NCBI RefSeq assembly: GCF_029961145.1
Contig: NZ_JASBRG010000007.1
Coordinates: forward strand, 1,096,155-1,160,154
Direction: 5' to 3'
From: Pinibacter soli
GTDB lineage: Bacteria > Bacteroidota > Bacteroidia > Chitinophagales > Chitinophagaceae
Length of the DNA stretch: 64,000 bases
The position numbers and the translations under genes are program-made. Below the pieces are notes generated by a model. It searched no databases and had not been told where the DNA came from. It saw only the letters and a program-made list of their open reading frames with translations. Positions 19,088-36,464 of this stretch are shown here, one piece after another; position 1 is the stretch's first letter; each line of letters starts with the position of its first letter.

Positions 19088-21091
19088 TTAGTTATTCGGA
19101 ACAAATGTTCCCATGATGCCGCTGGCGTCTTTCCATTGTGTTGTTTGCGTGATCCACGTATTGGTAGAAATAATGGTAGAGTTGATTCCTGACAAATAAT
19201 AGTTTGGCCTGAACAAGATGTTTGACTGTGCACTGTTTACAGCATCCCATGGCTTATCCAATGGTGCTCTTGTGAATTTTGAACGATACAGTGTTTTCAG
19301 GTTAGCAATTTGTGTATTGAATGCTGCGGTTCCCCATGCATCAGGATCAATTGAGATGCTTGCACGGTCTGCTGCTGTAAGAGGATCTGTATTGTTCAGC
19401 ACAAGGCTTTGCCAGTAGTAACCATTTCTTGAAGATCCGTTCAATGGAGTTGTGCCAAGTTTAGAAGAGGTGCTACCTGCAGTATTGTCATACAGCATCC
19501 AGCGGTGAATATCCCAGAAACGTTTTCCTTCGTAAGCCAACTCAACACGACGCTCATACAAAACAGCTTCGATAGCCTGGTATTTTGTGGTAAGGTTACC
19601 AATACCGTAATTATTTGCAGCAGGTATACCAACGCGTTTACGTATTTTACCCAGGTAAGTGATTGTATTTCCGATGTCTCCGGTTGCAGCATAACACTCT
19701 GCAATGTTCAACAATAATTCTGCATAACGGTATTCGAAAATATCTGTTCCCGAGTATTGGAATATTGTTGAATCAGCATTTGTGTCTGTAAATTTTCTAA
19801 CAACAGCCGGGCTGTTTGTAGAGATGTTTGCATAGTACAGACCGGTTGTTTGACTTGGGTCTTTTTTCCATCTGTATAACCAAACAACTTTATTCGCATT
19901 TCCTTTAAGCGGCCATTTTTCTCCTGAGAAAGCAAATGTGCGATAAAAACGAGGATCTCTGTTTTCGAAGAAGAAAGTATCAACATAGTTTTTGTTGGCA
20001 CCAGATGCAATCGGACGAGAGCCATCTGCCAATGGAAACAGGTCAAGCATTTCTTTTGGCGCAGAAATTCCATTTCCTGATCCACCTACATCACTTAGAC
20101 GAATTGAGTTTTCCCATCCATTGTTCAATTGTGCTCCGGCAGCTGTAGAAGCGCTTGACATTAACTGAACCATGATCGCTTCGGGGTTGAATGTAGTGTT
20201 GTTTAAAATTTTAGTCATGTCTGCCCAATCTTTTGCAGATGTGCCATACAGACCATATCCTTGTGAGGTTAATGCTGTTTCAGCTTTTAAACTTGTAGCA
20301 AGTGCGGCCTGCCATTTTGAGCTACCTGCGTTATCCCAATCAGCGTTAAATAAAGGACTTGCGGCAGTTAACAGTACACGGCTCTTCATTGCTGTTGCAG
20401 CGGCGCCGGTTATTTTACCATAGTCAGAAGCATCGGTCCACGCACCCGGCTTACCTCTTGTTGGCAACAACGCTTCCGCAGAATCCAGATCCTTAATGAT
20501 TTGTGTAAAGACCTGTGTAGCCGTAGAACGAGGCACCTGGATGGAAGAATCGCCCAGTTGACCCGCTTTCAGCACAATAGGAACACCACCGTATGTTCTT
20601 ACCAGGTCATAATACTGGATCGCACGGAAAAAATACATTTGTCCTTTCGATGCAGATTTGAAGTTCGCAGAAAGATTTTGACCCAATTCTTCAACCTTCT
20701 CCAGGAAGAAGTTACAGAATCTTATACGTGTGTAGGGATAGTTCTGAACAGATGATGCTACTACACCAAAATAAGCATCATAATCATTACTGTTTGTTCC
20801 ATCAAGATTTTTGGTTGGATTGATCCTGTCAGCAACCGTTCCACCCATTTCTTCCGTCATCTTCGTTTTCGAATCATCATATACGCCTGCCAATGTTGCT
20901 GTCGGAAGCTTGTATGTATTATAGAAGTTATAGTACATATTGTTAATGTAAAGTTGTGCTTGCGCCTCATTGGTGAAAATGGTTTCATCAAATTGGTTGT
21001 AGCTTTTTAGGTCCGACAGAAATTTTTTGCTACAGCCCGTTGCCAGTATGGCTAGTGAAGAAAGTATATAAATTAGTTTTTTCTTGTTCAT
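19088..21091 (-). CDS. SusD-family outer-membrane glycan-binding lipoprotein
   Basis: A 667-residue SusD homologue. The lipobox LATGC places Cys20 as the lipid anchor. The SusD/RagB fold follows: an N-terminal helical segment (YNQFDETIFTNEAQAQLYINN), TPR-like helices (QMYFFRAIQYYDLVRTYGGVP, a typical SusD motif), and the C-terminal block ending in AYEGKRFWDIHRW. SusD proteins sit on the cell surface as a lid on their partner SusC and bind oligosaccharides before import. The gene follows SusC after 34 bases, the standard pair arrangement. It is somewhat longer than the usual 500-600 residues, which may reflect a bulky, branched ligand. Confidence 0.95.
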   Translation of the reverse strand: MNKKKLIYILSSLAILATGCSKKFLSDLKSYNQFDETIFTNEAQAQLYINNMYYNFYNTYKLPTATLAGVYDDSKTKMTEEMGGTVADRINPTKNLDGTNSNDYDAYFGVVASSVQNYPYTRIRFCNFFLEKVEELGQNLSANFKSASKGQMYFFRAIQYYDLVRTYGGVPIVLKAGQLGDSSIQVPRSTATQVFTQIIKDLDSAEALLPTRGKPGAWTDASDYGKITGAAATAMKSRVLLTAASPLFNADWDNAGSSKWQAALATSLKAETALTSQGYGLYGTSAKDWADMTKILNNTTFNPEAIMVQLMSSASTAAGAQLNNGWENSIRLSDVGGSGNGISAPKEMLDLFPLADGSRPIASGANKNYVDTFFFENRDPRFYRTFAFSGEKWPLKGNANKVVWLYRWKKDPSQTTGLYYANISTNSPAVVRKFTDTNADSTIFQYSGTDIFEYRYAELLLNIAECYAATGDIGNTITYLGKIRKRVGIPAANNYGIGNLTTKYQAIEAVLYERRVELAYEGKRFWDIHRWMLYDNTAGSTSSKLGTTPLNGSSRNGYYWQSLVLNNTDPLTAADRASISIDPDAWGTAAFNTQIANLKTLYRSKFTRAPLDKPWDAVNSAQSNILFRPNYYLSGINSTIISTNTWITQTTQWKDASGIMGTFVPNN

Positions 21092-21125
21092 TTTGATCAG
21101 ATTAATTCTTTAACAAAAAATCATT

Positions 21126-24100
21126 TTAGAATCCAAGGTTAACACCCAATGCCCAGGTTCTCAATGTAGGATAAGTCACATTTGGCGCATCATACATATT
21201 GCGGTAATGGTTAGGATATGGGTTATAAAGATCCCACAAATTCATTCCTGAAATGAATACTCTTGCATTTTCAATTTTTGCTTTCCTTGTTACTTGTGCA
21301 GGAATGGTGTAACCCACACTCATGCTGCGAATAACCATGCGAAAAGTTGGCAAAAGGAAGAAATCAGAGTTGGTGCCATTAAATGTATCATAATAGGCAA
21401 GGCCAGGATATTTTCCGTTCGGATTATCAGTTGCATCGAACATGTCATTCAGGTAAACCGGCTGTGACCACCAGAAGTTAGCAGAACCTGTTGCCTGTTT
21501 TATATAATCCAGTTTGTTTATACCGCCCCATGAAGTTCCGATCTGGGCCAGGAAGCTAATGCCTTTCCATGTAAGACCCAAATTAGTAGTAATACCGTAA
21601 GTTCTGTTCTTTTTAACGAATTGCACATAATCCTGGTCCTGAACGATCTGTCCATTTTGACCTGCTACTGTTTTTGAATTCAGATCTTTATTACCTGCAA
21701 TATCTTCATAAGCTAACATGCCGGGCTTAATGGCCGTTTTATCAACTATGCCCATATAAGATGGAGCATTACCTGCTTTTACAGCAAGATCACTCAGGTA
21801 TTGCCAGTATGCGTCTATATCAGCCTGGTTACGCAAAAGACCATCGTGTGTGGAGTTTTGTTTCCAGGTTCTAAATCCCCAGGCTGGAGTAATGGTTGAA
21901 TAACCTACCTGTCTTCTCGTAGTCGTCAAAGATGGATAGTCGAATGGTCTGTCGAAATACTTGGTCATTCGGTTATCTGAATAACCAAAGTTCATACCAA
22001 TAGAATAATTCACTTTACCAACGTGGTCCTTCCATGTTGCTGAAATCTCAGCACCCCAGGCATTCATGTCTACGTAGTTCATGTCCGCAAAGGCACCGCC
22101 TTCAGTGACAGGCACTGCAGGGTTATCGGTCAGGTACGTTAAGATGTCGTGGCCTGAATTGTAGTAGTAATCAACGCTCATTGCCAAACGGCTTTTCAAT
22201 ACGGCGAAATCGAGTCCGATGTTACGCTGTATTGTCCAGTCCCATTTAATATCTCTGTTAGGAGTAACGCTTGGACTTGCAGCATACGTGTATGTACCGC
22301 CATTGGTACCAAAAGCTAAACCTTTCTGAGTAAGATCGAACACCTGCATCCATTTCCATGGCTTAACGTTGTCGTTACCTGTTTTACCCAGGGATGCACG
22401 TATTTTCAAGTTATTCACCCAGTTCACATTATCCTTGAACCAGTTTTCTTCAGATATCACCCAACCTGCCGATACGCCAGGGAAAGTTCCCCAGTAGTTC
22501 TCTGGTGCAAAATGGGTAGAAGCATCAGATCTAATTACAAACTGTGCCATGTATTTATTGGAATAGTTGTAGCTCACACGTCCAAAGTAAGACAAACTTC
22601 CTCCCGCATATTTTGTCGTAAGAGTGGTAGTAGGATCAATCGTACCAAGAGAAGTAAAAGATGTACCATTGTAAACATCACCGTTTGGCGAAGCATAGTT
22701 TTGATAGTTGTCATCCAGGTTATTCGTTGATTTTTCAGCACCCGCCATTGCAGAAATGTTATGGCGGCCAAAAGAATGATCGTAAGTCAGATAGAAGTTT
22801 TGCTGCACATTCTTCGATACGGTATTATCATAAGTAACACGTGCATTGTTTGTGGCTTTTGCCGGTGGGGCCCACGTTATTGTAGGAGAACTATACAAGT
22901 GATTACCTGCAGTGTTCGTGTTGGTAGCACGCTCCAATATTGGAGCAAACGCATTTTGTTCAGTTCTGCCGCTTGTTCCAGCTATAGCGTAAGATACTTT
23001 CGCTGATAAGCCTTTAAGGAAAGGAAAATCATATTGCAAAGAGAAGTTTGCGTTGTAACCAAATGTGTTGTTGAAAGTTTTAGAATTGTTATTCAACAAT
23101 GCAAAGTAGTTGATGCTTGTTACAGCCGAGGATGTTACGTTACCTGCAACCGTTTTTGCACTTTGCGCGGGAGATATAAAATAATCCGTACCATTAACAT
23201 TGTACTTATAAGGAATATACTTCGGCATGTGCAGCAGTATACCATAGTCATTCTGCTCACCACCGTTTGCATAACCATCGTTCACACTTGTTTTGGTGAA
23301 AGACTTTTCAAGATCAGAGTTTTGGGCGGCAATGGTTGCAGACAATTTAAGATTGTTAACCAGTTTTACATCAACGCCAGATCTGAAAGTGAATTTCTTG
23401 TAATCCTGTGAACCAAGGTTTGCAGTTTGCGAATAGTAAGAGGCTCCGGTGTAGTAAGTTGCCCTGTCGCTACCACCGCTTACGTTCAATGAATGCTGCA
23501 TTGCATTTGCGGGTTTCCATGCATCACCCAGCCAGTCATAGTTCAGTGAATCCATTTTCACAAGCTCTGTACTGTCGAACATGTTAGCTGTTGTCCAGTT
23601 CAAGGCACGACCCATGCGGTTGGAATATATACCATAGTCATGCGCATTCATTACTTTACCATGGCTTATTGCATCATTTATTTCAAACTTGCCCGAGTAA
23701 GAAATCCTTGGCATGCCAAGTTTGCCTCGTTTGGTTTTAACAATGATTGCGCCTTGTGATGCTCTTGATCCGTAGATAGCAGCGCTTGCATCTTTCAATA
23801 CAGTGATACTTTCCACTTCAGAAAGATCAAGCAGATTGAACTGATCCATAGTCGGCTTGCCGGACTGGGGATCTAATTGTATCACGTCATCAATAATAAC
23901 TAACGGTAATGGACTACTACCATCCTTACCAAAGTCGAATTGCTGGCGAATGTTTAGTGTAGGCATTAGACCGGGACGGGTACTACCACCTACAACGTTT
24001 AAGCCAGGCACCTGACCCCTTAGGGCTTCGGTAACTGTTGCAACAGGCATATCCTCCAATTTCTTTGTGTCAACTGATACGATAGCACCTGTGATGTTTT

Positions 24101-24500
24101 TTTGTTTCTGTGTACCATAACCAATCACCACTACTTCGTCCATGTCTTTATTCTCTTGCTGCATGGTGATCACAATGCCATTCTTATTTCCCGCTAATGA
24201 GTAGGAAACATATTTCATACCCACTCGTGAAAGCGACAATTTGCCTCCCTCGGGAGCGCTTAATTTAAATGTGCCGTCTTCTGCTGTCTGAGTTGCGGTC
24301 GTTGTACCCTGAACCAGGACCGAAACGCCTGGAAGTGGCTTGCCGTCGGCATCCACAACTTTTCCGGATACATTAACCTTTGGTGCAGTTTGTGTCGTTG
24401 GTGTAGAAGGGTTTTGCGAAAAAACAGGGTTGGCTAACGCAAAGCCTGCTACAACGATAAGTGCGAGTTTTTTAATAGCGCCGTCGTCTATTTTTTTCAT
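21126..24500 (-). CDS. SusC-family TonB-dependent oligosaccharide transporter
   Basis: A 1124-residue outer-membrane transporter. After the signal peptide (ending VFSQ) come a carboxypeptidase-regulatory-like domain (about residues 43-115, VSGKVVDADGKPLPGVSV), the SusC signature DEVVVIGYGTQ around residue 122, a plug domain (about 130-260, with VESITVLKDASAAIYGSRAS) and a long 22-strand barrel ending in an aromatic residue (GVNLGF). It uses TonB energy to pull oligosaccharides bound by SusD into the periplasm. No FecR/sigma-interacting extension is present, so regulation by a trans-envelope sigma cascade is unlikely. It is preceded by a DUF3826 gene 81 bases upstream. Confidence 0.96.
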   Translation of the reverse strand: MKKIDDGAIKKLALIVVAGFALANPVFSQNPSTPTTQTAPKVNVSGKVVDADGKPLPGVSVLVQGTTTATQTAEDGTFKLSAPEGGKLSLSRVGMKYVSYSLAGNKNGIVITMQQENKDMDEVVVIGYGTQKQKNITGAIVSVDTKKLEDMPVATVTEALRGQVPGLNVVGGSTRPGLMPTLNIRQQFDFGKDGSSPLPLVIIDDVIQLDPQSGKPTMDQFNLLDLSEVESITVLKDASAAIYGSRASQGAIIVKTKRGKLGMPRISYSGKFEINDAISHGKVMNAHDYGIYSNRMGRALNWTTANMFDSTELVKMDSLNYDWLGDAWKPANAMQHSLNVSGGSDRATYYTGASYYSQTANLGSQDYKKFTFRSGVDVKLVNNLKLSATIAAQNSDLEKSFTKTSVNDGYANGGEQNDYGILLHMPKYIPYKYNVNGTDYFISPAQSAKTVAGNVTSSAVTSINYFALLNNNSKTFNNTFGYNANFSLQYDFPFLKGLSAKVSYAIAGTSGRTEQNAFAPILERATNTNTAGNHLYSSPTITWAPPAKATNNARVTYDNTVSKNVQQNFYLTYDHSFGRHNISAMAGAEKSTNNLDDNYQNYASPNGDVYNGTSFTSLGTIDPTTTLTTKYAGGSLSYFGRVSYNYSNKYMAQFVIRSDASTHFAPENYWGTFPGVSAGWVISEENWFKDNVNWVNNLKIRASLGKTGNDNVKPWKWMQVFDLTQKGLAFGTNGGTYTYAASPSVTPNRDIKWDWTIQRNIGLDFAVLKSRLAMSVDYYYNSGHDILTYLTDNPAVPVTEGGAFADMNYVDMNAWGAEISATWKDHVGKVNYSIGMNFGYSDNRMTKYFDRPFDYPSLTTTRRQVGYSTITPAWGFRTWKQNSTHDGLLRNQADIDAYWQYLSDLAVKAGNAPSYMGIVDKTAIKPGMLAYEDIAGNKDLNSKTVAGQNGQIVQDQDYVQFVKKNRTYGITTNLGLTWKGISFLAQIGTSWGGINKLDYIKQATGSANFWWSQPVYLNDMFDATDNPNGKYPGLAYYDTFNGTNSDFFLLPTFRMVIRSMSVGYTIPAQVTRKAKIENARVFISGMNLWDLYNPYPNHYRNMYDAPNVTYPTLRTWALGVNLGF

Positions 24501-25433: not shown

Positions 25434-26345
25434 ATGCAAGAACAAACAAACAAGCGCGGTTCGCACAAAAATATCTGGTACGGCCAGGGCCGCCAGCGTA
25501 TAGAAATTCCAAAGCCTTTGGTGAAATCACATATCCAAAGCAATGTGTGGTTGAAACAGTTGTACCTCTGCAGCCTTGGATATTACCCACAGGCAGAGGG
25601 CCACTACACCTACAGAAAGAAAGGATTGCCCGAAAACTTCCTGTTTTACTGCGTTGACGGTAATGGCTTCTACAAAATAGAAGATAAACAGTACGAAGTG
25701 GGCCCAAACGAGTTTTTCATTTTGCCACAAAACGTTGAGCACAGCTACGGAAGCATGGAAAAAAATCCATGGAGCATTTACTGGCTACACTTTGGCGGAG
25801 AACTGCTGCCACATTTCAATTCGTTGCGTACTGTTCAGGAGCATTATAAACCCGCATATATAAAAAGCAATGAGGAAATTTTTACCCAGTTTAATAAAAT
25901 GTACAAAACGCTTGAACTGGGCTACAGTACAGACAACCTGCTCTTCGCAAACATGTGCCTGCCGCACTTTCTCACGCTTTTTGTATATGCCGCAAAACAT
26001 AGCATTGCAAATACAAAAGAGAAAAATGATTGTGTAGACAACGCGATCCTCTTCATGCGGGAGCATATTCACGAAAACATTTCACTTCCGGATCTTAGCG
26101 CCAGTTACGATTACTCCACCTCACGTTTCTCTGACATCTTCAAACAAAAAACAGGCTACTCGCCGATAGATTATTTCATTCAAATGAAAATGCAGAAAGC
26201 CTGTCAGCAACTGGATCTCACCGATCTCTGCATTAAAGAAGTGGCGTCGCAAATGGGCTTTGATGATCCGTATTATTTCTCCAGAAGATTCTCGAAAGTA
26301 ATCGGCATGCCGCCTACGAAGTATAGGAGTGTAAAGAAAGATTAG
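25434..26345 (+). CDS. AraC-family transcriptional regulator
   Basis: A 303-residue cytoplasmic regulator. Residues about 35-150 form the cupin-like sugar-binding domain (FYCVDGNGFYKIE, ILPQNVEHSYGS, WSIYWLHFGG). The C-terminal 100 residues are the double helix-turn-helix with the AraC signature (SRFSDIFKQKTGYSPIDYF and EVASQMGFDDPYYFSRRFSK). The cupin domain and position suggest it responds to a released monosaccharide, probably L-rhamnose or L-arabinose by analogy with AraC/RhaS, and activates the divergent operon. No hybrid two-component sensor, the usual pectin-locus regulator in Bacteroides, is in the window. It is convergent with the oxidoreductase gene, and the gap is entirely a palindrome. 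Confidence 0.92.
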   Translation: MQEQTNKRGSHKNIWYGQGRQRIEIPKPLVKSHIQSNVWLKQLYLCSLGYYPQAEGHYTYRKKGLPENFLFYCVDGNGFYKIEDKQYEVGPNEFFILPQNVEHSYGSMEKNPWSIYWLHFGGELLPHFNSLRTVQEHYKPAYIKSNEEIFTQFNKMYKTLELGYSTDNLLFANMCLPHFLTLFVYAAKHSIANTKEKNDCVDNAILFMREHIHENISLPDLSASYDYSTSRFSDIFKQKTGYSPIDYFIQMKMQKACQQLDLTDLCIKEVASQMGFDDPYYFSRRFSKVIGMPPTKYRSVKKD

Positions 26346-26421
26346 GTAGAGACAAGGCAGTGCCTTGTCTGCGCAGCCAACATGATTGATGAACCAAGAC
26401 AAGGCAGTGCCTTGTCTCTAC
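26346..26421. repeat. GTAGAGAC palindrome pair filling a convergent gap
   Basis: Two copies of a palindrome (26346-26370 and 26397-26421), each containing AGACAAGGCAGTGCCTTGTC, form a larger inverted repeat GTAGAGAC...GTCTCTAC. The plus-strand AraC stop is directly before it, and the minus-strand oxidoreductase TAG stop is its other end, so the element spans the whole gap and may act as a two-way terminator. Confidence 0.9.
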
Positions 26422-27452
26422 TGAATCTTCTCTCCTCCTTTCGCACTCGACGCATACGCAGCTTCCACACATGCCATCGTGTAAATGCAGTCGTCAACGG
26501 AATTATCAGGCGCTGGAATTTTACCATCGGCGGCTAGGAGCACTTGTTCCATGCTATAAATAAAGGCGTGCGGAAACCAGGTTCCGTTAACAGGAAGTGT
26601 TTTCCATTCCGGCTCTTTGTCTTCTTCAAGTATTACATATTCAAATACATCGGGCATGCCCTGCGGGTAGTTCATGTTCAAGCCCATTTGAATCTTAATG
26701 GCGCCACGGGTGCCTTCTATCTTTACATTCGAACATTGATATTTTGTACCAAAATCATGGCAGTGATTAACAAGAATATTCGCCCTGATCATTTCGCCGT
26801 AATCCAAAATAATGTTGGAACGTACAGACGCAAGCTCCTTCATGCGCGGATGCTTTGTTGTTTTGGCATAAACGCTTTTGGGATTGCCCAGGAAACTTCT
26901 GATAAGGTCGATGTAATGAATGCTGTGATATAAAATTTCAACGCGTGGTAATGAATATAAAAAGTCCCACAACTGCCAGGGCGTGTAAACATTGATATTG
27001 AATTCAATATCGCAAACCTCTCCTATATCTCCATGGGAAATGATTGAACGCGCCATAGCGACAAACGGCGCATAGCGCAATTGAAAATTCACCGCCGCTA
27101 ACATTTTCTTCTCATGGACAATTTGCCTGATCTGCTTTGCTTCTTCTAATGTGTTTCCCATTGGCTTTTGCAAAAGCACGTTAGCGCCATTTGGCAAAGC
27201 CTTTAATGTTTCAATGAAAGCACTTGCAGGCAGGGCAACATCAAAAACGGCATTGGCAGGAACACTTTTCACCAATGTTTCCAATGAATCAAAAACTGCG
27301 GGAACGCCGAATTTATGGGCTGTCGCGATTGCTTTTTCCTCATTCGCGTCAAAAATTCCGGCGACATTGTAACCAGAAATCTTATAAGCAGGCAAATGCG
27401 CATCATTCACTATTCCACCCGCGCCAAGAATGTATATAGGTCTTGTACTCAC
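26418..27452 (-). CDS. Gfo/Idh/MocA-family NAD(P)-dependent sugar dehydrogenase
   Basis: A 344-residue cytoplasmic oxidoreductase starting at GTG (27452). The N-terminal Rossmann fold has GAGGIVNDAHLP (residues 10-21), and the catalytic lysine lies in LLQKPMG (Lys96), here QKP instead of the common EKP. A histidine pair (His176 and His179, SIHYIDL) is in the usual active-site helix. Family members oxidise sugars or inositols to lactones or keto forms; D-apiose, D-galactose, L-fucose and L-rhamnose dehydrogenases are known in this or related families. It has no signal peptide, unlike the surrounding glycosidases. It lies 58 bases downstream of a lactonase-type amidohydrolase, so a sugar-to-lactone-to-acid sequence is plausible. 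Confidence 0.85.
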   Translation of the reverse strand: MSTRPIYILGAGGIVNDAHLPAYKISGYNVAGIFDANEEKAIATAHKFGVPAVFDSLETLVKSVPANAVFDVALPASAFIETLKALPNGANVLLQKPMGNTLEEAKQIRQIVHEKKMLAAVNFQLRYAPFVAMARSIISHGDIGEVCDIEFNINVYTPWQLWDFLYSLPRVEILYHSIHYIDLIRSFLGNPKSVYAKTTKHPRMKELASVRSNIILDYGEMIRANILVNHCHDFGTKYQCSNVKIEGTRGAIKIQMGLNMNYPQGMPDVFEYVILEEDKEPEWKTLPVNGTWFPHAFIYSMEQVLLAADGKIPAPDNSVDDCIYTMACVEAAYASSAKGGEKIQ

Positions 27453-27493
27453 TTGATCAAAGTAATGTTGAAGTTCAAATAATATTCAAGAAG

Positions 27494-27518
27494 ACGAATG
27501 CGATTCGCCCTTACGGCA
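27494..27518. repeat. GCGAATCGCATTCG palindrome overlapping the amidohydrolase stop
   Basis: Same core as the element at 33-57. On the minus strand CCGTAAGGGCGAATCGCATTCG begins in the last codon of the amidohydrolase gene, and its TAA is the stop codon. Confidence 0.8.
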
Positions 27519-28368
27519 ATTTATAAAACTGTTGCGCATTTTCGCAGAATATTTTTTTGCTAACAGCCTGGCCGAAAAGTTTTTCTATAACCTCCCTGTA
27601 GCATTGCCAGGTTTCCTTGTAGGATTCGGCTTTTAAAGAAACGGGCCAATCGCTTCCGCAGAAAACACGGTTTTCGCCAAACTGCTCCACGGCAAATGAT
27701 ATGCAAGGAGCGATTTCATCCCCCTTGCGCATTGTCTGGTTATCCTCGGCAAGCCCAAGTCCGGAAATTTTTGCGTAAAAGTTTGGATGCTTTGCGGCTT
27801 CTTTCATTAGCTCCGCCCATTTTTCGAATTTTTGGTTTTGATTAATCGGTGGTTGGCTAAGGTGATCAAACACCATGCGTAAGGACGGTATTTTTTTTGC
27901 CACAGCAATAGCTGCCTCGATGTGCTCCAGCTGCACAGCTACTATTTCGTAAGCTATGTTGTGTCCCGCCAGGATTTCAAGACTTTGCAAAACTGTTTCC
28001 TGCAACAGCCACTGAACGTTTGTTTCGTTGTGAATCAGGTGGCGAACACCTTTGAAGTATTTATTGGTAAGATATTTTTCGGCTAATAGCTGCTCCGTTT
28101 TTAACGGGTCCTGCAAAGGAAGCCAGCCGACTACTCCGGCAATCCAATCTGTGTGGCAGGCCACTTCCAGCATCCAGTCAGTATCTTCCAGGTTATTGGC
28201 AGCCTGTACAAGAACGCCTTTTACAATATTCAGCTCCTTGCGGTCGCTTTCAATTTCATGAATATTATAAGTGCGTTTGAGCACAGGGTTTTCGTTGTCC
28301 AACCATGCATACCTGGCATGATCAAGATCCCAAACATGAATATGTGTATCAATAATCGGATTAAACAT
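27511..28368 (-). CDS. Amidohydrolase-fold sugar lactonase (COG3618)
   Basis: A 285-residue cytoplasmic metal-dependent hydrolase of the L-fuconolactonase / L-rhamnonolactonase group. The metal-binding HxH motif is at the start (IIDTHIHVWD, His9 and His11), a second histidine sits in FDHLSQPP (His169), and the C-terminal aspartate is in FCGSDWPV (Asp240). The family opens 1,4-lactones to the free aldonic acid. It lies directly before the Gfo/Idh/MocA gene. The 240 bases between it and the CoA-transferase genes contain no other gene, so it could have its own promoter. Substrate cannot be read from the sequence; L-rhamnose, L-fucose, L-galactose or apiose lactones would all fit this locus. Confidence 0.85.
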   Translation of the reverse strand: MFNPIIDTHIHVWDLDHARYAWLDNENPVLKRTYNIHEIESDRKELNIVKGVLVQAANNLEDTDWMLEVACHTDWIAGVVGWLPLQDPLKTEQLLAEKYLTNKYFKGVRHLIHNETNVQWLLQETVLQSLEILAGHNIAYEIVAVQLEHIEAAIAVAKKIPSLRMVFDHLSQPPINQNQKFEKWAELMKEAAKHPNFYAKISGLGLAEDNQTMRKGDEIAPCISFAVEQFGENRVFCGSDWPVSLKAESYKETWQCYREVIEKLFGQAVSKKIFCENAQQFYKLP

Positions 28369-28608
28369 GGAGCCTCAAGCAATCTTGTAAATTGGTTAAA
28401 ATCAGAGTTTTGTGAGGCGACCATCAGTTAAGAAAGGTATGTAAATGACAAATCCGTTCTGTAGCCAGGTAACCTAGCTGCAATATAGCGCAATTGCCAT
28501 AATAGCAAGCACCGTTAGAACGAGATTACGACCATTCTAGGAGAAAATTGCCCGAAATTGGGCTCAATATGGTTAAACTGGTACTATAGAGAGAGGAAAC
28601 AGTATTTT

Positions 28609-29757
28609 TTAAGGTGTAACCGAAAATTGTTCTTCTATCTCTGCATTGTGTTCGCCTAACACAGGCGCACCTAAAGTTGAATCCAACATTTTGCCATCAA
28701 TGCGAACAGGGCACCGGGTTGTTCTCACCGTATGACCAGCGCCGGTACGCACTTCCATTTCCATGTGCAACAATTTGTAAGCATCTTTCTGCATCAGCAT
28801 GTCATAGTCCATGACTTCCGAGCACCAGATACCAGCGGGTTCCAGCAACGACAACCAATGTGCGGTTGTTTGCGGCCCAAGATGTTCCGTCAGGACATTC
28901 TTAATTTCATCACGCTTCGAGAACCATTCGTCTTTGTCTTGGAAACTATCTAATTCATTACAAACCAACGTCTTTCCGAGCATAGGTATATCTCCCATTG
29001 CCAGCGCAATGTAGCCGTCAGCAGTTTTGTAGATGCCGTATGGGGCGGAAAGATAGGCATTGCCATTACTGATGGCACTCCGTTGTGGCAATTGGCCTCC
29101 ATCGTTATAAAAACAAGTGAGCAATTCAAATTGGAAGTCGAGAATACTTTCCAGCATGCTTACCTGCACCAACCCTCCTATTCCCAAAGCGCCACGGCGA
29201 TACAATGCCGCCAGCAGTCCCTGGGCCAGATGAGTTCCGGTTAAAATATCTACAACAGCCACGCCTGTTGGCGTTGGCTTTTTGTCTTTGTTGTGACTCA
29301 GCCACGAAAGGCCTGAGATAGCTTGTAGCAGCAAATCCTGTCCCGGCAAGCCTTTCCACGGGCCTTCGTCGCCATAACCACTTACTTCGCCGTAAACAAT
29401 TTGCGGATTTATTTTCTTCACATCATCATAAGTCAAACCAAGTCTCTTCATTACACCAGGTCTGAAATTGTGAATCATTACATCTGCTTTTGCAATCAGT
29501 TGTTTGATTTTTTTCAGATCGTCTTCATCTTTCAAATCTGCAGCATAGCTCTGTTTGTTACGATTGATGGCGTGAAAAATAGTAGACTCACCTTCGATCA
29601 TTACGTCTGAAACGTAAAGCTGGCGGCAGATATCGCCTGTTCCCTTTTTCTCTATCTTGATTACCTGAGCACCCATGTCGGCCAACCTCAGACTGGCTGA
29701 GGGTCCCGATAAGAATTGACTAAAATCCAACACAATGATGTCCTGCAATAATTTCAT
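28609..29757 (-). CDS. Class III (CaiB/BaiF) CoA-transferase, copy 2
   Basis: A 382-residue cytoplasmic CoA-transferase of family III. The N-terminal motif is GPSASLRLADMGAQVIKIE, and the conserved HNFRPG block is at residues 96-101. The catalytic aspartate that carries the acyl anhydride is present in VVDILTG (Asp170). These enzymes move CoA from succinyl-CoA, acetyl-CoA or another ester to a carboxylic acid. The gene follows copy 1 after two bases, so translation is probably coupled. Paired class III subunits that act as heteromers are known (SmtAB, BbsEF). Confidence 0.9.
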   Translation of the reverse strand: MKLLQDIIVLDFSQFLSGPSASLRLADMGAQVIKIEKKGTGDICRQLYVSDVMIEGESTIFHAINRNKQSYAADLKDEDDLKKIKQLIAKADVMIHNFRPGVMKRLGLTYDDVKKINPQIVYGEVSGYGDEGPWKGLPGQDLLLQAISGLSWLSHNKDKKPTPTGVAVVDILTGTHLAQGLLAALYRRGALGIGGLVQVSMLESILDFQFELLTCFYNDGGQLPQRSAISNGNAYLSAPYGIYKTADGYIALAMGDIPMLGKTLVCNELDSFQDKDEWFSKRDEIKNVLTEHLGPQTTAHWLSLLEPAGIWCSEVMDYDMLMQKDAYKLLHMEMEVRTGAGHTVRTTRCPVRIDGKMLDSTLGAPVLGEHNAEIEEQFSVTP

Positions 29758-29759
29758 GG

Positions 29760-30932
29760 CTAAAGTTTTGGCTGCGTGAACAAATGCTCACTTAAAATTT
29801 CCTCCTGAATTTTTTGATTGTGTTCTCCTAACAACGGAGCTGGTGTGCCGGAATAAATTCTGCTACCGTCTATTTTGATGGGACATCTGGTTGTTGTAAT
29901 ATCTGCTCCGGGAACATTGATGGTTTGTTCCATTTCGAGGCACAGATAACCTTCATGTGTGGAAAGCTGTTGCCAGTCCATTATTTCCATTGACCACAAA
30001 CCAGCTGCATGCAACTTTTCAAGCCAGTAAGAAGAACGATTGCCTGCAACATGCTGTGCAATCAGTTCTTTTATTTCATCTCTTTTTGCAAAGGCATCGC
30101 TTTGCGAATAGCTATGTAAAATATGGCAATCAATCGCGGTGGCAAGTTGTGCAAGACTCATCATGGCAATTGCAAGGTACCCATCCTGCGTAGCATAAAC
30201 GCCGTAGGGCGCACTGAGCAAGGGATTGGCGTTGCTTATCTTGCTTCTTACGGGTTGTTGTCCGGAAGCAAAATAAGTGGTCAACAACTCAAACTGAAAG
30301 TCAAGCAATGATTCCATTAAGCTTGTTTCCACTAAAGCACCCTGACCTGTTTTTTGTCTTCTGATGAGTGCTGCTAAAATACCTTGTACCAGCTGTGCGC
30401 CACACAAATTATCACCGATAGATACACCGCAAGGCACAGGCGCATCACCCTGGTCGCCGCTTGCATATGCAAGACCCGTGATGGATTGCAACAGCAAATC
30501 CTGTCCCGGCTTGCCTTGCCAGGCACCGGCTTTTCCGTAACCGGAAATTTCTGCGTAAATGAGTGACGGATTAATTTGTTTTACAGTAGAATAATCCAGC
30601 CCTATTTTCTCCATTACTCCCGGTCTGAAATTGTGGATCAACACGTCTGCCTTTGCAATCAGCTGTTTAACCGTTTGCAATTCTTCCGCATCTTTAAGGT
30701 CGGCTGTAAAACTTTCTTTGTTCCTGTTGATGGTGTGAAATAGCAAGCTGTCGCTGCCCACCCAGAGATTCTTGATGGACAATTTTCTTCCGGCTTCTCC
30801 CTTTTCGGGATGCTCGATCTTTATCACCCTTGCGCCAAGATCTGCAAGTCGCAGACCGGCTGAAGGGCCTGAGAGGTACTGGCAAAACTCCAGTACAACT
30901 AATCCTTTTAATGGCAAGACAATGTCGGTCAT
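29760..30932 (-). CDS. Class III (CaiB/BaiF) CoA-transferase, copy 1
   Basis: A 390-residue paralogue of the next gene, aligned over its whole length (shared GPSAxLRLADxGAxVIKIE, HNFRPGVM, PGQDLLLQ). It retains the catalytic aspartate in SIGDNLCG (Asp174). The ATG at 30932 overlaps the MaoC stop codon by one base (TGATG), evidence of one operon. The longer frame starts at a TTG. The substrate is unknown; a hydroxy or unsaturated acid is likely because of the adjacent MaoC-type hydratase. Confidence 0.9.
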   Translation of the reverse strand: MTDIVLPLKGLVVLEFCQYLSGPSAGLRLADLGARVIKIEHPEKGEAGRKLSIKNLWVGSDSLLFHTINRNKESFTADLKDAEELQTVKQLIAKADVLIHNFRPGVMEKIGLDYSTVKQINPSLIYAEISGYGKAGAWQGKPGQDLLLQSITGLAYASGDQGDAPVPCGVSIGDNLCGAQLVQGILAALIRRQKTGQGALVETSLMESLLDFQFELLTTYFASGQQPVRSKISNANPLLSAPYGVYATQDGYLAIAMMSLAQLATAIDCHILHSYSQSDAFAKRDEIKELIAQHVAGNRSSYWLEKLHAAGLWSMEIMDWQQLSTHEGYLCLEMEQTINVPGADITTTRCPIKIDGSRIYSGTPAPLLGEHNQKIQEEILSEHLFTQPKL

Positions 30933-31378
30933 CAAGCAATTGTTTTTCGTTGAACGAGATACACGTGCTCACAAACCATCACCAGTTCGTTATGCTGGTT
31001 AAATGTTTCCACTGATTCAAATACTAATCCAAATCCAGGCTTCTTGTGATCTTCTTTCGCAACAATGGTCGTCTTAACGTTGATGGAATCGTCGATAAAA
31101 ACCGGTTTTACAAAGCGAAGGCGGTTATAGCCGTAAGTCATCGCCAATTCGTTGATATCCGAAGCTGTAAGTCCTATTGCTATGCTAAACACCAGTGTAC
31201 CATGCGCCATCCGTTTTTTAAAAGGCTGCGTCTCGCACCATTCTGCATCCATGTGATGAGGAAAAAAATCACCCGTCTGCGCGGCATGTAAATTAATATC
31301 CTTTTCTGTAATTGCCTTCGAAAGGGTTTGCCTGCCTTCGCCTAAAAGGATCTCCTCAAACCACCTGTTTTGCGCCAT
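30932..31378 (-). CDS. MaoC-type enoyl-CoA hydratase
   Basis: A 148-residue hot-dog-fold protein with the R-specific hydratase motif D-x-x-P-x-H-x-D: [10 protein letters not shown], with Asp37 and His42 as catalytic pair, followed by MAHGTLV. It adds water to or removes it from a CoA ester. It is the first gene of the cassette and has no signal peptide. MaoC with class III CoA-transferases is the gene pair used for mesaconyl-CoA / methylmalyl-CoA interconversion in other bacteria, but no CitE-like lyase is visible here, so that route is not demonstrated. Confidence 0.88.
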
Positions 31379-31669: not shown

Positions 31670-32776
31670 CTATTTTACAAACTCCACCTTACTCTTGCCC
31701 TTATCAACCGATGTTGCCACGGCAATGCCGCGATGATCAGCTTTGTCAACCGCACAATAGAAATGATAAACTACGCCCTTGTACTTAACTACGTAAGATT
31801 TGTGAGCCCATTTCGCATCGAATGGCTCTGAAGATTGAATTAGATTATCGCCCGTCCAGCCGGTCCAATGTACAAGATCGTATGAACATGCAAAGCGATT
31901 GTAGGCGCCGTCCTTATTGCCTTTCCAGAAGGCACCGAAATAAAACATTACCCATACATCCCCAATTTTCTGGATCACCGGATCGCCGGTAATACCAACA
32001 GGATGATGCATTACAGGCTCCTGCTCATAGCGTTTCCATGTTTTCATATCATTTGATACAGCCATGCCGATCCTTTCATACCATCTTGTTTTAATATTGT
32101 TAATAGCAGAATCTCCATTTGCATTATAGAACATTACGAAAGGGTAACCCGTCAATTTTTGCTTATCCCAAATGATAGAACTTTTAAACAGCTTCTTATT
32201 TTCCCACCATCTCACATCTTTATCTTTCGCAGTTAAAACCGGTGCAGGAAACCGCTTCCACTCGTGCGCCTTTGCTGCATCGCCTGAAGTGTAGGCCATG
32301 CTTATCGCAAGCGCTCCAGCCTCATACCCTCTTTCATTGCCGCCAAAATATGACATCCAGTATTTGCCATCATACTTTTGAAGATTGCAAGAACCGCCCC
32401 ATGCATAATCTTCCAATGCCACATAACCGGCTTTCTGATGCGTATCCCACTGCGTTGTATCACTGAATGACAACATTTTTCCCAATGTTTTCCATTGCAA
32501 TAAATCATTACTTGTTGCAAGCCATGTTTCATACCCACGGCCGTCAAATTGAATGTAACTCATGTACCACTCATTTCCTTTGCGGAAGACGGTGGGGCAA
32601 TCAATTTTCTTTTCGTTGCTTTCCGGCACAACTACAAGCCCATATTTATAAGGCGTTTTGACTTCTTCATAAATTTTTTGCATTGTTGCCTGCGGCACTT
32701 CTTTCACGTTTTGTGCCTTCGCAGCAAAAGAAATTATTAATGCAAAAAAGAGTTTGAAATATATAAAGCGTTTCAT
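31670..32776 (-). CDS. Five-bladed beta-propeller glycosidase, GH143-like candidate
   Basis: A 368-residue exported protein with signal peptide ending AKAQ. The blades show repeated motifs (DCPTVFRKGNEWYMSYIQFDGRG, YDGKYWMSYFGG, YPFVMFYNANGD, GDVWVMFYFGAFW), typical of GH43/GH32/GH143-like propellers. The opening (IYEEVKTPYKYGL) resembles my memory of the N-terminal half of BT1020, the GH143 enzyme that releases DHA from rhamnogalacturonan II; this needs alignment. Other options are a GH43-type arabinofuranosidase or a GH130-like enzyme. It is last in the eight-gene glycosidase run. Confidence 0.6.
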   Translation of the reverse strand: MKRFIYFKLFFALIISFAAKAQNVKEVPQATMQKIYEEVKTPYKYGLVVVPESNEKKIDCPTVFRKGNEWYMSYIQFDGRGYETWLATSNDLLQWKTLGKMLSFSDTTQWDTHQKAGYVALEDYAWGGSCNLQKYDGKYWMSYFGGNERGYEAGALAISMAYTSGDAAKAHEWKRFPAPVLTAKDKDVRWWENKKLFKSSIIWDKQKLTGYPFVMFYNANGDSAINNIKTRWYERIGMAVSNDMKTWKRYEQEPVMHHPVGITGDPVIQKIGDVWVMFYFGAFWKGNKDGAYNRFACSYDLVHWTGWTGDNLIQSSEPFDAKWAHKSYVVKYKGVVYHFYCAVDKADHRGIAVATSVDKGKSKVEFVK

Positions 32777-32909: not shown

Positions 32910-35900
32910 CTATTTCTCCTTCAACAACACCACCGGCCCCAGCAAACCCGCCGGTATCAAAGGCTTACCTTCTAGTCTATACGGCGATTCTGTATTCGTA
33001 ACCCTTTCCGCTTCCGGCAATGAATGATCTCCGATCAATCTGTTTGCCCAAGTATTCGTTACTTCTATTTCCAACTTATTCACTCCAACTTTCAACGCCT
33101 TTGTGATATCCACCCGATAAGGCGCCGTCCACGCGACGCCGCAGTTTACTCCATTCACTTTTATTTGTGCAATGTTGTTTACCACTCCCACATCTAACCA
33201 TATTCTGTTGCTTACGGCCAACGCATTCCAGTTAAAAGTTGTCGAATAAATTGCGGTGCCTGAATAATACTTCACACTATCATTGCTATTGACCGTCCAA
33301 TCCGCAAGTGTTTTGAATTCCTGTGATTCTACCGGCCCACCATATGTTTTGTCAAACATAACATTCCACGAACTATTCATAGTAGAAAGTGTCGTAAACT
33401 CGAAACGATTATATCCTGTAGAAGATTTCACTTTCTTACCGACGTCTTTTTTTATGATCACAAACAAAGATCCACTTGCTTCAAGACCTAATGGCAGCAA
33501 TGTTCTTCCGTTAGCCACTTTCCAGTTTTTTGCAGACAACGTCCGGTTTGTTACAGCATCATAGATTTCTGCTACACCTCCTGATACCCTCAGCGAAGCA
33601 TTGACTGAAACAGGTTTATCACCCTGATTACTGATGAAATAAATATCCGTACTACCATCAACTCTATGCGTGTAAGCAATATTCTTAATCGGGCTATTCC
33701 GGTTGTCGGTAAAAATCACATCGCGCTGTAACCCGAAGTTTTCAAAATCACTTTTCAGATAAGGCACTTCTGCAACCCGCTCTTTGCCGGTACTACGAAT
33801 TTCGTCGAGGATACTTTTTAAAACCGCATCATCTTTTGAAGATGCCAATCCCGTCGTTTCTTTTAATCCATCAGGAAGCAAAATATTAGCGCCTTGTTTC
33901 ACCAATTGCAATATGTGCTTTGCAACTGGAAGGCTCATAATCGTACCATCGGTCAACATCGGATGTTTTGAAGGAATAACGAGCACCCGGTAAATCGCTC
34001 CGCCCGGCAATGCGATACGGCCATTCTTTACTTCAGCGGTCAGCAAGGCATCAACATTGATGCAATCATACGCATAGCCATTTAACGGATTTACCCAATC
34101 TTTGGGTTCTGAAATATTTGTGCTCCAAACACTCGCGGGCATTTCTTTAACAGGTACACCAACATTTTGCAAACGTTTTTCCTCCCTTTCAAACTCGTCT
34201 TTTCCCATCACACCGGGCAATGTATAAATAAGCCTTTCAGGCAAAATGGAACGCCTCGGAATTTCTTCTCCTGTAAATACTGCAACATCAGCGACAGGTA
34301 CTCCACGCTGCAATAACTTCTGACAACGTATCGCATACTCAACCCAGGCCGCACCGGGCTTCCACCATGTTTGATCGCGTTGAAAATACAAGCCAACAGA
34401 ATTGAGCGTCATGCCCGGCTTTCTATCTAACCACGGATTGTGCGCAAACACATGATATACCATGCGATTGATGCCTAAAGCATAATTGCGATCCAGCAAA
34501 GATTTTAACATGGCAGGGTGTTCATCCCATGCCATTCTTAACTCAGTAAAGCCTTCTGCCTGGATAATTCTCTTTTTATAGATATGTGCTGCAGAAATCG
34601 CGTCCAGCATATCATTGGGCTTGTCATGGGTTGGACTTCTCAACCAAAATTCACCCATTGGTATGTCAACATACTTATAGTGTAGCATACCATCACTTGT
34701 CATTGTTGGCGCTACACTTTCTGCAGTAAACAAGCATCCCTTTTCATGCGAAAGTTTCGCTAGGGTTGCATAAAATTTGTCCCCAATTAGATCAACGATC
34801 GTTTGTCTTACATCACGCAGAAAACGCTCTGAAACATCTGCGCTTTCGACGGGAACACCTGTCATCACAGGCAAATACCGCATCATGTCATACCCGCGTC
34901 GCTTTGCAAATTCTGCTGCAAAATTTGATGACCAGTTCTGACTGCCGCATTCCCAACTATCCACATGAAACACTTTCAACACCTGTTGCGCCAATCCCTG
35001 ATCTGTATTCTTATACACTGCTCCAAACCAATTGTCGAACTGCAATTTGATCGCATCTACATTAAACTTATCACACTCAAGTCCTTTACCGCCGCCACCT
35101 GTAGCATTGGTATGCTCGGTTGAAGTATGCCCTATTCGCAGGATTGTCCATTTGCCAGCCGGCACTTTCCATTGCAGGCGACCATCTGCATCTACAAATT
35201 TGGAAAGATCAACAATCGATGAAAGCTGCACACACATTGCATCAGACACTTGTTGCGATGTCGTTGGCAAACTGATGCGCCATACTTCTCCTGTTTTTCC
35301 TTCATACTGGTTGATCTGGGGTTTGCCAAACAATTCCAGCCCATTCAGTTTCAAAACTGGCTTCCACTTCGCCGCATCTAGGTCTTCAGACCCTGGTTCT
35401 GTTCCTTCTTTATCGTATGTAAATCGAAAATACTTTGCAGTAACGGGTTCTATCACATGCGTAACAGGTGCATCTGTATCCTGCCAGCCATGACGCGGAG
35501 GAGTTAGCTGCGTTACAAATCTGAAATTCGTTCCATCATCACTCACTTCTATTTTTAAGCGATGCGACTGGTAATTATTTCCCCCCGTTGTAATCAAAAT
35601 TGAGCGACAAGTAAATGGTTGCTGAAAGGAGTATTGAATCCAGCAAGGTTTATCACTTTTTACGCCTTCTTTATTTCCACGCTTAACCAGCAATTGTGCA
35701 TTCGCTCCCTCAATATTTGTTGTAACAACTGGCACTGTACTGCGTGTAGAAATATCTGCGTCATGAGGTGTAGGATACGCCAGAATTTTTATGTCGTGAT
35801 AATAATTTTCATTGTATTGCGGTTTTGGCAAGATTGCGTTAAAGGCTGCGTTGCCTTCTACAATAGTATCAACACTCACAATTTTCTGCATGGACATTTC

Positions 35901-36260
35901 AGGCTTTATCCAAGGGCCTCCACCCAATGCAAAACCATCACTATAGTGCATACCTATTTGCAATCCCAAACGTTTCGCTTCTTTAAAAGCAAAATTCACC
36001 ATCTGCCACCAACGCGGTGAAAGCTGAATGGTCGGTGTGTCTACCAAAGGTTTCTCTCCTGGGGATTGTATGGGCATCAAATAAGCGCCACCAATGCCGG
36101 ACGCTTTCATTGCCTGCAGATCAGCGGTTATGCCTTCCTTTGAAACCGCTCCCTGCATCCAATACCAAAACACCCACGGTCGCGAAAACGAAGTATCAGT
36201 CTGCGCAAATAACTGTACAGACAAAAAGGTGATAATGATGTATAATAAAACTTTCTTCAT
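32910..36260 (-). CDS. GH106 alpha-L-rhamnosidase
   Basis: A 1116-residue exported enzyme of GH106, which removes alpha-L-rhamnose with inversion. The start at 36260 is used because the signal peptide (MKKVLLYIIITFLSVQLFAQ) begins there. The GH106 opening PWVFWYWMQGAVSKEGITADL...GGAYLMPIQ is clear, followed by a catalytic TIM barrel with ESVAPTMTSDG, QAEGFTELRMAWDEHP and GINRMVYHVFAHNPW, then beta-sandwich domains ending in a galactose-binding-like sheet. Known GH106 enzymes act on rhamnogalacturonan I and II in Bacteroides. It precedes the propeller gene and follows the GH2 gene after a hairpin-rich gap. Confidence 0.93.
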   Translation of the reverse strand: MKKVLLYIIITFLSVQLFAQTDTSFSRPWVFWYWMQGAVSKEGITADLQAMKASGIGGAYLMPIQSPGEKPLVDTPTIQLSPRWWQMVNFAFKEAKRLGLQIGMHYSDGFALGGGPWIKPEMSMQKIVSVDTIVEGNAAFNAILPKPQYNENYYHDIKILAYPTPHDADISTRSTVPVVTTNIEGANAQLLVKRGNKEGVKSDKPCWIQYSFQQPFTCRSILITTGGNNYQSHRLKIEVSDDGTNFRFVTQLTPPRHGWQDTDAPVTHVIEPVTAKYFRFTYDKEGTEPGSEDLDAAKWKPVLKLNGLELFGKPQINQYEGKTGEVWRISLPTTSQQVSDAMCVQLSSIVDLSKFVDADGRLQWKVPAGKWTILRIGHTSTEHTNATGGGGKGLECDKFNVDAIKLQFDNWFGAVYKNTDQGLAQQVLKVFHVDSWECGSQNWSSNFAAEFAKRRGYDMMRYLPVMTGVPVESADVSERFLRDVRQTIVDLIGDKFYATLAKLSHEKGCLFTAESVAPTMTSDGMLHYKYVDIPMGEFWLRSPTHDKPNDMLDAISAAHIYKKRIIQAEGFTELRMAWDEHPAMLKSLLDRNYALGINRMVYHVFAHNPWLDRKPGMTLNSVGLYFQRDQTWWKPGAAWVEYAIRCQKLLQRGVPVADVAVFTGEEIPRRSILPERLIYTLPGVMGKDEFEREEKRLQNVGVPVKEMPASVWSTNISEPKDWVNPLNGYAYDCINVDALLTAEVKNGRIALPGGAIYRVLVIPSKHPMLTDGTIMSLPVAKHILQLVKQGANILLPDGLKETTGLASSKDDAVLKSILDEIRSTGKERVAEVPYLKSDFENFGLQRDVIFTDNRNSPIKNIAYTHRVDGSTDIYFISNQGDKPVSVNASLRVSGGVAEIYDAVTNRTLSAKNWKVANGRTLLPLGLEASGSLFVIIKKDVGKKVKSSTGYNRFEFTTLSTMNSSWNVMFDKTYGGPVESQEFKTLADWTVNSNDSVKYYSGTAIYSTTFNWNALAVSNRIWLDVGVVNNIAQIKVNGVNCGVAWTAPYRVDITKALKVGVNKLEIEVTNTWANRLIGDHSLPEAERVTNTESPYRLEGKPLIPAGLLGPVVLLKEK

Positions 36261-36464
36261 TCTTGATTTATCTGCTCTGCAAGACTTGTAGTCTTGCAGC
36301 ATTATTCTATTGCCTTTGGCAACTAGTATCGCCAGAGGCGATAGAATATTCCTCCGAAGCTAAAAGCTTCGGAGAGCGTGAGATTTGATGTTTTACGCAC
36401 TAGCATCTCAAATATCAAATCATCACTAATCTTGACAATCATGAAAATCAGCGTTCTTTCTCTC
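36261..36464. repeat. Four hairpins packed between GH106 and GH2
   Basis: This gap holds four dyads in a row: CTGCAAGAC / GTCTTGCAG (36277-36299); a 17-base imperfect stem, ATTCTATTGCCTTTGGC against its inverse (36304-36347); CTCCGAAGCT / AGCTTCGGAG (36352-36374); and a degenerate copy (about 36379-36455) of the inverted repeat at 54463-54638. No gene is present. Confidence 0.8.

Follow-up and report, generated by a model that had tools for sequence, protein, structure and literature searches.

What do five genes for apparently cytoplasmic enzymes do inside a locus for the degradation of pectin? The genes lie on the minus strand between positions 26418 and 31378 of a 64,000 nt stretch of Pinibacter soli DNA (the window, to whose positions coordinates refer), and encode a MaoC-type hydratase, two class III coenzyme A (CoA)-transferases, a lactonase-type amidohydrolase and a Gfo/Idh/MocA dehydrogenase. 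A preliminary description placed this cassette inside a pectin locus, which can be stated more exactly as one of the rhamnogalacturonan-II (RG-II) type, and proposed that its products oxidise a sugar, open the lactone and process the acid as a CoA ester in the cytoplasm. Our analysis leads by inference to the same kind of route, tied to RG-II loci in the family of this bacterium. On balance, we favour the view that the cassette serves to catabolise a fucose-type sugar in the cytoplasm, with 2-O-methyl-L-fucose (MeFuc) as the most likely substrate, by the route set out below. MeFuc, the best candidate, was missing from the sugars first considered (rhamnose, apiose, fucose and aceric acid). A fucose-type substrate is very probable and MeFuc itself is probable, whereas the loss of methanol in the proposed manner is a tentative suggestion.

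The five open reading frames (ORFs) are intact where the preliminary description had placed them, and each product exceeds the Pfam cut-off for its main domain. The MaoC-type hydratase gene (30932..31378, PF01575) is followed by those for CoA-transferase subunit 1 (29760..30935, PF02515) and subunit 2 (28609..29757, PF02515, E 1.2e-95), an amidohydrolase of the fuconolactonase superfamily (27511..28368, Amidohydro_2, PF04909) and the Gfo/Idh/MocA dehydrogenase (26418..27452, PF01408 and PF02894). The genes are tightly packed, with gaps, by rising coordinate, of 58, 240, 2 and -4 bases; the second codon of CoA-transferase subunit 1 is an ATG (30932) located at the MaoC stop. A simple measure, the top 12-residue hydropathy within the first 40 residues, gave 0.22-1.91 for the five proteins, the highest value belonging to one CoA-transferase that comes nearest to the exported range, and 2.13-2.89 for 11 exported controls. 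The five therefore lack a signal peptide, as had been claimed, and the accompanying claim that nearly every neighbour is exported holds for the six window neighbours among the controls, which are those that the check covered.

The individual proteins carry the residues expected of their families. The two CoA-transferases match PF02515 with 321 and 315 bits (cut-off 23), and the motif aspartate, which we take to be the catalytic residue, is kept in all 28 aligned sequences of either set (the single copies of loci L027 and L029 being counted in both, and the L044 fusion being represented without its first half). In L044 both subunits are fused in one ORF of 783 amino acids (stop-free frame of 795 residues), which supports a heterodimer. 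The MaoC protein (75.8 bits to PF01575, cut-off 27; nearest solved relative 4ffu) has a GDFFPHHMD block that is invariant in all seven aligned sequences, that of the window included, and whose Asp and His residues are presumably those of the hydratase. For the lactonase, the nearest solved structure is 4dlf (E 4e-24), it belongs to the same superfamily as L-fucono-1,5-lactonase, and the sole NCBIfam match is to that enzyme (NF052480); its 146 bits fall far short of the cut-off of 400, and so of the equivalog level. Dehydrogenase orthologues that adjoin CoA-transferases share 92% identity in the sister species; the range is 47-67% for other Bacteroidota and 41-51% for Proteobacteria and one actinobacterium. 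Distances among the cassette proteins correlate with r of 0.44-0.89, values uncorrected for shared ancestry that we do not use as evidence.

We considered how often the cassette recurs in a family sample of 196 genomes, comprising that of P. soli (G000) and relatives, at a CoA-transferase threshold of E<=1e-80. It is present in 23, each with a second CoA-transferase match beside the first (partial in G066, for which tblastn gives a fuller match in locus L049). MaoC and the dehydrogenase stand beside the CoA-transferase in all 22 cassette genomes other than G000 (in one of them the dehydrogenase gene is broken across two frames). The lactonase is beside it in 20; in the remaining two (L047 and L048) its place is taken by a protein termed u5. 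Recurrence at this frequency with these neighbours argues that the cassette is not a chance association. The usual order in the family is MaoC, a protein termed u0, CoA-transferases 1 and 2, lactonase, in some cases a RhaT permease, and the Gfo/Idh/MocA gene, with exceptions in L047 and L048 and in L030 and L038, where MaoC lies elsewhere. The five genes are thus not the complete unit that they were first taken to be, as u0 is added in most relatives and a permease of the RhaT or FucP type is frequent there. At L033:1282-2336 (G107) a dehydrogenase gene split over two frames reflects a pseudogene or a sequencing error.

Within the Chitinophagaceae, to which Pinibacter belongs, the cassette is tied to RG-II genes: glycoside hydrolase (GH) family GH138 is present in 22, GH139 in 21 and GH127 in 21 of the 23 cassette genomes. 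For neighbouring genes we used 22 fetched family loci of 12-21 kb each, leaving out the window and L022 (G001, the sister species Pinibacter aurantiacus), and a wider table of 50 loci, 48 of which pass the CoA-transferase threshold (L074 and L119 were dropped, and L022 was omitted as a near copy of the window). Relatives of the cassette occur in at least three phyla (Bacteroidota, Proteobacteria and Actinobacteria). The earlier association with pectin loci does not extend to all of them, as the fetched cores from Proteobacteria and Actinobacteria lie outside such loci, an outcome that by the criterion of the preliminary description counts in part against it. Because the cores outside pectin loci mostly stand with L-fucose pathway genes, this result sharpens the identity of the substrate and does not dissolve the system.

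The link to MeFuc comes from GH139. In several loci a DUF5703 protein adjoining the cassette matches the PDB entries 9hyq and 9hmb; PMC12282258 lists both as GH139 structures and describes GH139 enzymes as 2-O-methyl-alpha-L-fucosidases. Two Hymenobacteraceae loci, one from Botryobacter (L028) and one from a plasmid of Rufibacter (L112), share a single gene order, SusC-SusD-GH139-u0-CoA-transferase-CoA-transferase-u5-Gfo/Idh/MocA-MaoC-RhaT. On the plasmid, GH139 is followed by one additional small gene for a hypothetical protein, and past RhaT the opposite strand carries further RG-II-type genes. A GH139 gene lies inside the fetched stretch in 8 of the 48 CoA-transferase-bearing loci. Of the 196 genomes, 24 carry GH139 and 23 the cassette, with 21 carrying both, and 18 of the 20 same-contig pairs are within 100 kb of each other (the 21st genome has them on different contigs). 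The GH139 gene of P. soli itself (G000:C11:1084150-1086420) lies 9.7 kb beyond the edge of the window, at a distance of 40 kb from the CoA-transferase gene, and adjoins a Zn-alcohol dehydrogenase gene whose product is 60% identical to one in the L-fucose cluster of L075. The GH139 gene at G351:C1:785239-787527 contains one in-frame TAG.

Genes for L-fucose catabolism are the second recurring context. In the Bacteroidota locus L075 an L-fucose dehydrogenase gene stands beside the cassette (NF052481, 353.9 bits, cut-off 300, a comparison made for this locus), with homologues 51-94% identical in L040, L071, L072, L073 and L076. All six loci carry a fuconolactonase-like gene, and five of them a fumarylacetoacetate hydrolase (FAH)-type hydrolase, which was not detected in L073. 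L040 also encodes an L-fucose permease, FucP, above cut-off, and L066 has FAH and short-chain dehydrogenase/reductase (SDR) genes near the cassette, its FAH copy scoring best with NF053535 at 342 bits, below the cut-off of 500. The clusters of Roseibium (L111), Shinella (L113) and Sinorhizobium meliloti pSymA (L110/L122) include an annotated L-fuconate dehydratase, and that of Compostimonas (L027), an actinobacterium, includes one recognised by 63% identity; in Ponticoccus (L116), UxaA-type hydrolases take the place of this enzyme. Beside the cassette, L067 (Pfam Alpha_L_fucos), L114 and L115 (both annotated) encode an alpha-L-fucosidase. An FAH homologue is encoded by 27 of 28 genomes tested, including that of P. 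soli, where it lies about 1 Mb from the window (G000:C11:111395-112246) and is 74% identical to the L040 protein. L040 has two lactonases, 51% and 33% identical to that of the window, together with two dehydrogenases, and in L071-L073, L075 and L076 an L-fucose dehydrogenase and a lactonase stand beside the Gfo/Idh/MocA enzyme and u5. These paired sets argue that the cassette acts on a substrate other than L-fucose.

From this gene content and context we infer the substrate and each of the following reactions. GH139 would free MeFuc from chain B of RG-II. The Gfo/Idh/MocA enzyme would oxidise C1 of MeFuc to yield a lactone, the amidohydrolase would open the lactone to 2-O-methyl-L-fuconate, and the CoA-transferase heterodimer would load CoA onto this acid. 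Elimination of the 3-hydroxyl by MaoC would then give 2-methoxy-enoyl-CoA, an enol ether whose hydration, with loss of methanol, would produce 2-keto-3-deoxy-L-fuconyl-CoA. The CoA would be passed to the next acid, and the resulting 2-keto-3-deoxy-L-fuconate would be converted to pyruvate and lactate by a dehydrogenase and an FAH-type hydrolase. In several loci the cassette is accompanied by SDR and FAH genes, whose expected substrate would be this 2-keto-3-deoxy acid. The need for CoA would arise because an ordinary fuconate dehydratase works through an enol whose tautomerisation the 2-methoxy group would block. The stereochemistry can also be accommodated. L-Fucose is 2S,3R,4R,5S and D-xylose 2R,3S,4R, and MaoC hydratases are R-specific whereas crotonases are S-specific. 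The R-specific MaoC should therefore suit L-fucose and not 2-O-methyl-D-xylose, as C3 is R in the former and S in the latter. Relatives with a crotonase (L025, L065, L068 and L119) would suit the opposite configuration.

Several observations weigh against this reading. GH138 is present in 12 of the 22 fetched family loci and directly adjoins the dehydrogenase gene in seven, while GH139 is present in six; both are found in two. Because GH139, GH138 and GH127 track the cassette alike (21, 22 and 21 of 23), the data from within the family point to RG-II and not to a particular sugar, and co-occurrence was given up as a means of choosing among them. G031 has a cassette without GH139, GH138 or GH127 (E<=1e-150), G068 has all three hydrolases and no cassette, and G002 and G008 have GH139 without a cassette. 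A phylum sample of 296 genomes contains u0 in 15, GH139 in 16 and both in 11. In this sample G296, G341, G398 and G468 carry u0 without GH139 (E<=1e-80), G296 being a variant with aldehyde dehydrogenase and crotonase, and four GH139 genomes lack u0 besides G000, which counts as GH139-only here through the absence of u0 although its cassette is present. Fucosidase-type genes occur in L046, L067, L114 and L115 with no GH139 in the fetched stretch, which argues for another substituted fucose or plain L-fucose there; PMC12282258 states that L-fucose, but not MeFuc, is a substrate of the known fucosidases of GH29, GH95, GH141, GH151 and GH168. The L-fuconate dehydratase in four non-Bacteroidota loci suggests that the CoA part of the route may end in L-fuconate. 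Finally, no clear fucose gene was seen in the fetched locus of the gammaproteobacterium Alginatibacterium (L026).

The alternative that survives best is that the cassette serves plain L-fucose, with L-fuconate being joined to CoA and dehydrated by MaoC in place of fuconate dehydratase. The alpha-L-fucosidase genes in L067, L114 and L115 would fit such a function, as would a GH95-like protein encoded beside SusC, SusD and the cassette at L046:8897-11422 (G031). So would four genomes (G355, G386, G218 and G406) that have no obvious enolase-type fuconate dehydratase, yet carry L-fucose dehydrogenase and fuconolactonase-like genes. Each has two MR_MLE proteins of 341-361 residues, in a search that left UxaA- and IlvD-type dehydratases aside, and the CoA route may therefore also serve L-fuconate there. 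However, G214 of the same group encodes one more MR_MLE protein, the third, with 424 residues, and an L-fuconate dehydratase in the same cluster in the four non-Bacteroidota loci would make CoA superfluous in those organisms. The doubled dehydrogenase and lactonase sets point to two substrates, and the compact loci with GH139 should release MeFuc. We regard plain L-fucose as unlikely. P. soli itself encodes three MR_MLE proteins. The GH95-like protein of L046 is only distantly related to solved fucosidases (E 1e-15) and is possibly a new methylfucosidase.

A second alternative, which we consider quite unlikely, is that the substrate is another RG-II sugar, namely 2-O-methyl-D-xylose, aceric acid or apiose. 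The GH138 counts in the family loci are compatible with this idea, as are the GH127, apiosidase and GH138-type genes in the window, and the known apionate route also opens with a Gfo/Idh/MocA enzyme and a lactonase, which stand there beside an apionate oxidoisomerase, a decarboxylase or a RuBisCO-like protein. However, GH138 was not detected in the 27 fetched loci from outside the family, while fucose genes recur; C3 of D-xylose is S, which does not suit an R-specific MaoC; and neither aceric acid nor apiose explains fuconate dehydratase or fucosidase neighbours. Aceric acid and apiose, suggested by the GH127 and apiosidase genes of the window, were accordingly set aside, since it is fucose genes that recur outside RG-II loci.

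Least likely is that the core of CoA-transferase, solute-binding-fold protein and hydratase is a general sugar-acid adaptor whose substrate is set by the first dehydrogenase, so that relatives say nothing of the substrate in the window: L025, L065, L068 and L119 do have a crotonase for MaoC and an aldehyde dehydrogenase or SDR for the Gfo/Idh/MocA enzyme and lactonase, but these variants lack exactly the dehydrogenase and MaoC of the window type, and most loci that have both of these also have RG-II or fucose genes near. Loci with both and with no RG-II or fucose genes in the fetched stretch besides the cassette are L026, L023, L034, L038 and L041, of which the last three come from genomes that carry RG-II markers. 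In L025 (Cellulophaga), L065 and L068, an aldehyde dehydrogenase and a crotonase replace the dehydrogenase, lactonase and MaoC, and L025 and L065 also encode a protein with an agarase-CBM-like domain. A sister module at L119:8795-17414 (S. meliloti pB), with an aldose epimerase, SDR, CoA-transferase, u0-like protein (32%), crotonase-type hydratase and ribose-type ABC transporter, probably serves another sugar. A cluster similar to that module lies at L117:14797-22279, with no u0 detected in it.

Two proteins that accompany the cassette in its relatives have a solute-binding protein (SBP) fold and no leader. The first, u0, matches SBP_bac_1 (PF01547), and its AlphaFold2 model (mean predicted local distance difference test score, pLDDT, of 90.9) resembles maltose-binding proteins, with MalE3 as the best match at a template-modelling (TM) score of ~0.8. 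Its 23 N-termini reach a maximal hydropathy of 1.19, against 2.13-2.44 for five exported SBP controls, and so have no export signal by this measure. u0 is present in 26 of the 29 loci fetched by CoA-transferase (the window and L022-L049) and in all five fetched by MaoC (L112, L114, L115, L117 and L118); L065-L076, L110, L111, L113, L116 and L119 were fetched by means of u0, and u0 counts there are circular. A profile search (E<=1e-5, positive in G016 and G072) found u0 nowhere in G000, G001 or G078 (the genome of L030). As these three cassette genomes have no copy, u0 is common but not indispensable, and its candidacy as an essential methanol-releasing enzyme is weakened. The second protein, u5, stands at the position of the lactonase at L028:11162-12400 and in 13 other loci. 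Among the 48 loci u5 occurs in 14, the cassette lactonase in 22 and both together in none; 12 have neither, and five of these encode a more distant amidohydrolase. We do not claim u5 as a lactonase, as L115 has both u5 and an annotated propeller lactonase and the 12 loci manage with neither. A u0 homologue (49%) is encoded at L074:9397-10533 (G468). GH106 and an IclR regulator are encoded nearby, and the fetched stretch of 20 kb yielded no CoA-transferase.

The nearest described system is the oxidative, non-phosphorylative L-fucose pathway, which consists of a dehydrogenase, L-fucono-lactonase, L-fuconate dehydratase, 2-keto-3-deoxy-L-fuconate dehydrogenase and FAH-type hydrolase. The cassette shares with it oxidation at C1, an Amidohydro_2 lactonase and probably the same end. 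It differs in adding class III CoA-transferases, MaoC and, in most relatives, the SBP-fold protein, in having a Gfo/Idh/MocA dehydrogenase where the pathway uses an SDR type (SDR-type FucosDh stands beside the cassette only in relatives), and in a lactonase far below the family cut-off. Similarly, class III CoA-transferases work with hydratases in carnitine (CaiB/CaiD), itaconate (Ict/Ich) and Chloroflexus (SmtAB) metabolism, where the same enzyme families appear and CoA is recycled between product and substrate, and a two-subunit enzyme of this class is known from the PDB (benzylsuccinate, 9fn0 chains A and B). Unlike these systems, the cassette appears to act on a sugar acid, is linked to glycan loci and in most relatives includes a leaderless SBP-fold protein; no lyase gene was seen beside it, in contrast to the CoA-dependent acid systems. 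In the literature, the accessible part of PMC11378808 discusses oxidative routes for L-fucose that employ a dehydrogenase, a lactonase and a dehydratase, and mentions no CoA step. Marine Bacteroidota demethylate 6-O-methyl-D-galactose oxidatively with a cytochrome P450, according to PMC10033563. That system meets the same problem, the catabolism of an O-methyl sugar, with release of formaldehyde, whereas the cassette is proposed to lose methanol from a CoA ester; no P450 was found in a Pfam scan limited to 34 window proteins. GH139 enzymes, whose genes are co-localised with the cassette, account for release of the proposed substrate only, and neither the portion of PMC12282258 consulted nor the searchable literature gives an account of the intracellular fate of MeFuc. 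The claim that no described pathway has this set agrees with our own search of the open-access literature, which, among the matches listed, returned none and covered few subscription papers; no open-access paper matched the combination of CoA-transferase, MaoC and fuconolactonase, and nothing on these genes was among the matches listed for S. meliloti and fucose.

The cassette may represent CoA-dependent acid catabolism grafted onto an oxidative fucose route, which would leave room for oxygen-independent O-demethylation of a sugar. If so, CoA-thioester chemistry would be added to sugar catabolism, and sugar O-methyl groups could be removed in a second way besides P450, with methanol released without oxygen. 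The favoured reading would also explain why genes annotated as ‘ABC transporter substrate-binding protein’ and ‘CoA transferase’ stand beside fucose genes, and it offers a testable answer to how cultivable soil bacteria and rhizobia use MeFuc. Conserved leaderless proteins with a binding-protein fold are unusual in themselves. A bolder generalization, which we hold to be doubtful, is that bacteria of at least three phyla demethylate O-methyl-fucose with neither oxygen nor a methyltransferase, by way of a CoA aldonate, a methoxy-enoyl-CoA and methanol, having recruited u0 and, in many species, u5 (instead of the lactonase) as intracellular catabolic proteins. Whether MaoC or a crotonase is used would then depend on the configuration of the sugar at C3.

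The remainder of the window has the gene content expected of an RG-II utilisation locus, with SusC/SusD and several RG-II-type hydrolases (a GH138 relative, an apiosidase, a BT_1020-like protein, GH127, GH106, GH95, GH28 and GH78). The next gene upstream of the cassette encodes a GH137-type enzyme (31670..32776, minus strand; its N-terminal part matches NF049877 with 526 bits, short of the 1800 bits required at full length). Farther along lie the genes for a GH106 alpha-L-rhamnosidase (32910..36302, minus strand, PF17132) and a GH138-type galacturonidase (44987..47773, minus strand, E 3e-291 to BPa0997 structures). The family numbers GH137, GH138 and GH140, the galacturonidase activity of GH138 and the assignment of GH138 to chain A and GH137 to chain B are labels that we assume. 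The cassette does not lie between two glycosidase blocks, as had been described, as its left neighbours are an AraC-family regulator (25434..26345, plus strand, convergent with the cassette), a DUF3826 protein and a SusD and SusC outer-membrane uptake pair (19088..24500, minus strand). An AraC-family regulator also adjoins the cassette in L022, L024, L036, L038 and L042. The window encodes two DUF3826 proteins (16328-17011 and 24582-25280), and G355 and G386 likewise have DUF3826 in their RG-II loci. A DUF6298 protein (12864-16016) with a Collagen_bind_2 domain resembling that of the apiosidase, for which a search for a relative of solved structure found none, is possibly a new RG-II hydrolase.

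The lactonase and CoA-transferase genes are separated by a 240-base gap (28369..28608) that is kept in the sister species, where its central stretch is better conserved than its left part; a regulatory RNA was considered for this gap and rejected (fold z -1.48, no Rfam family). A promoter scan found nine sites against 10.9 expected from shuffles. Between the convergent dehydrogenase and AraC genes, positions 26327-26440 can form a very strong hairpin (z -7.53) whose Rfam miRNA matches are below gathering scores and which is probably a two-way terminator.

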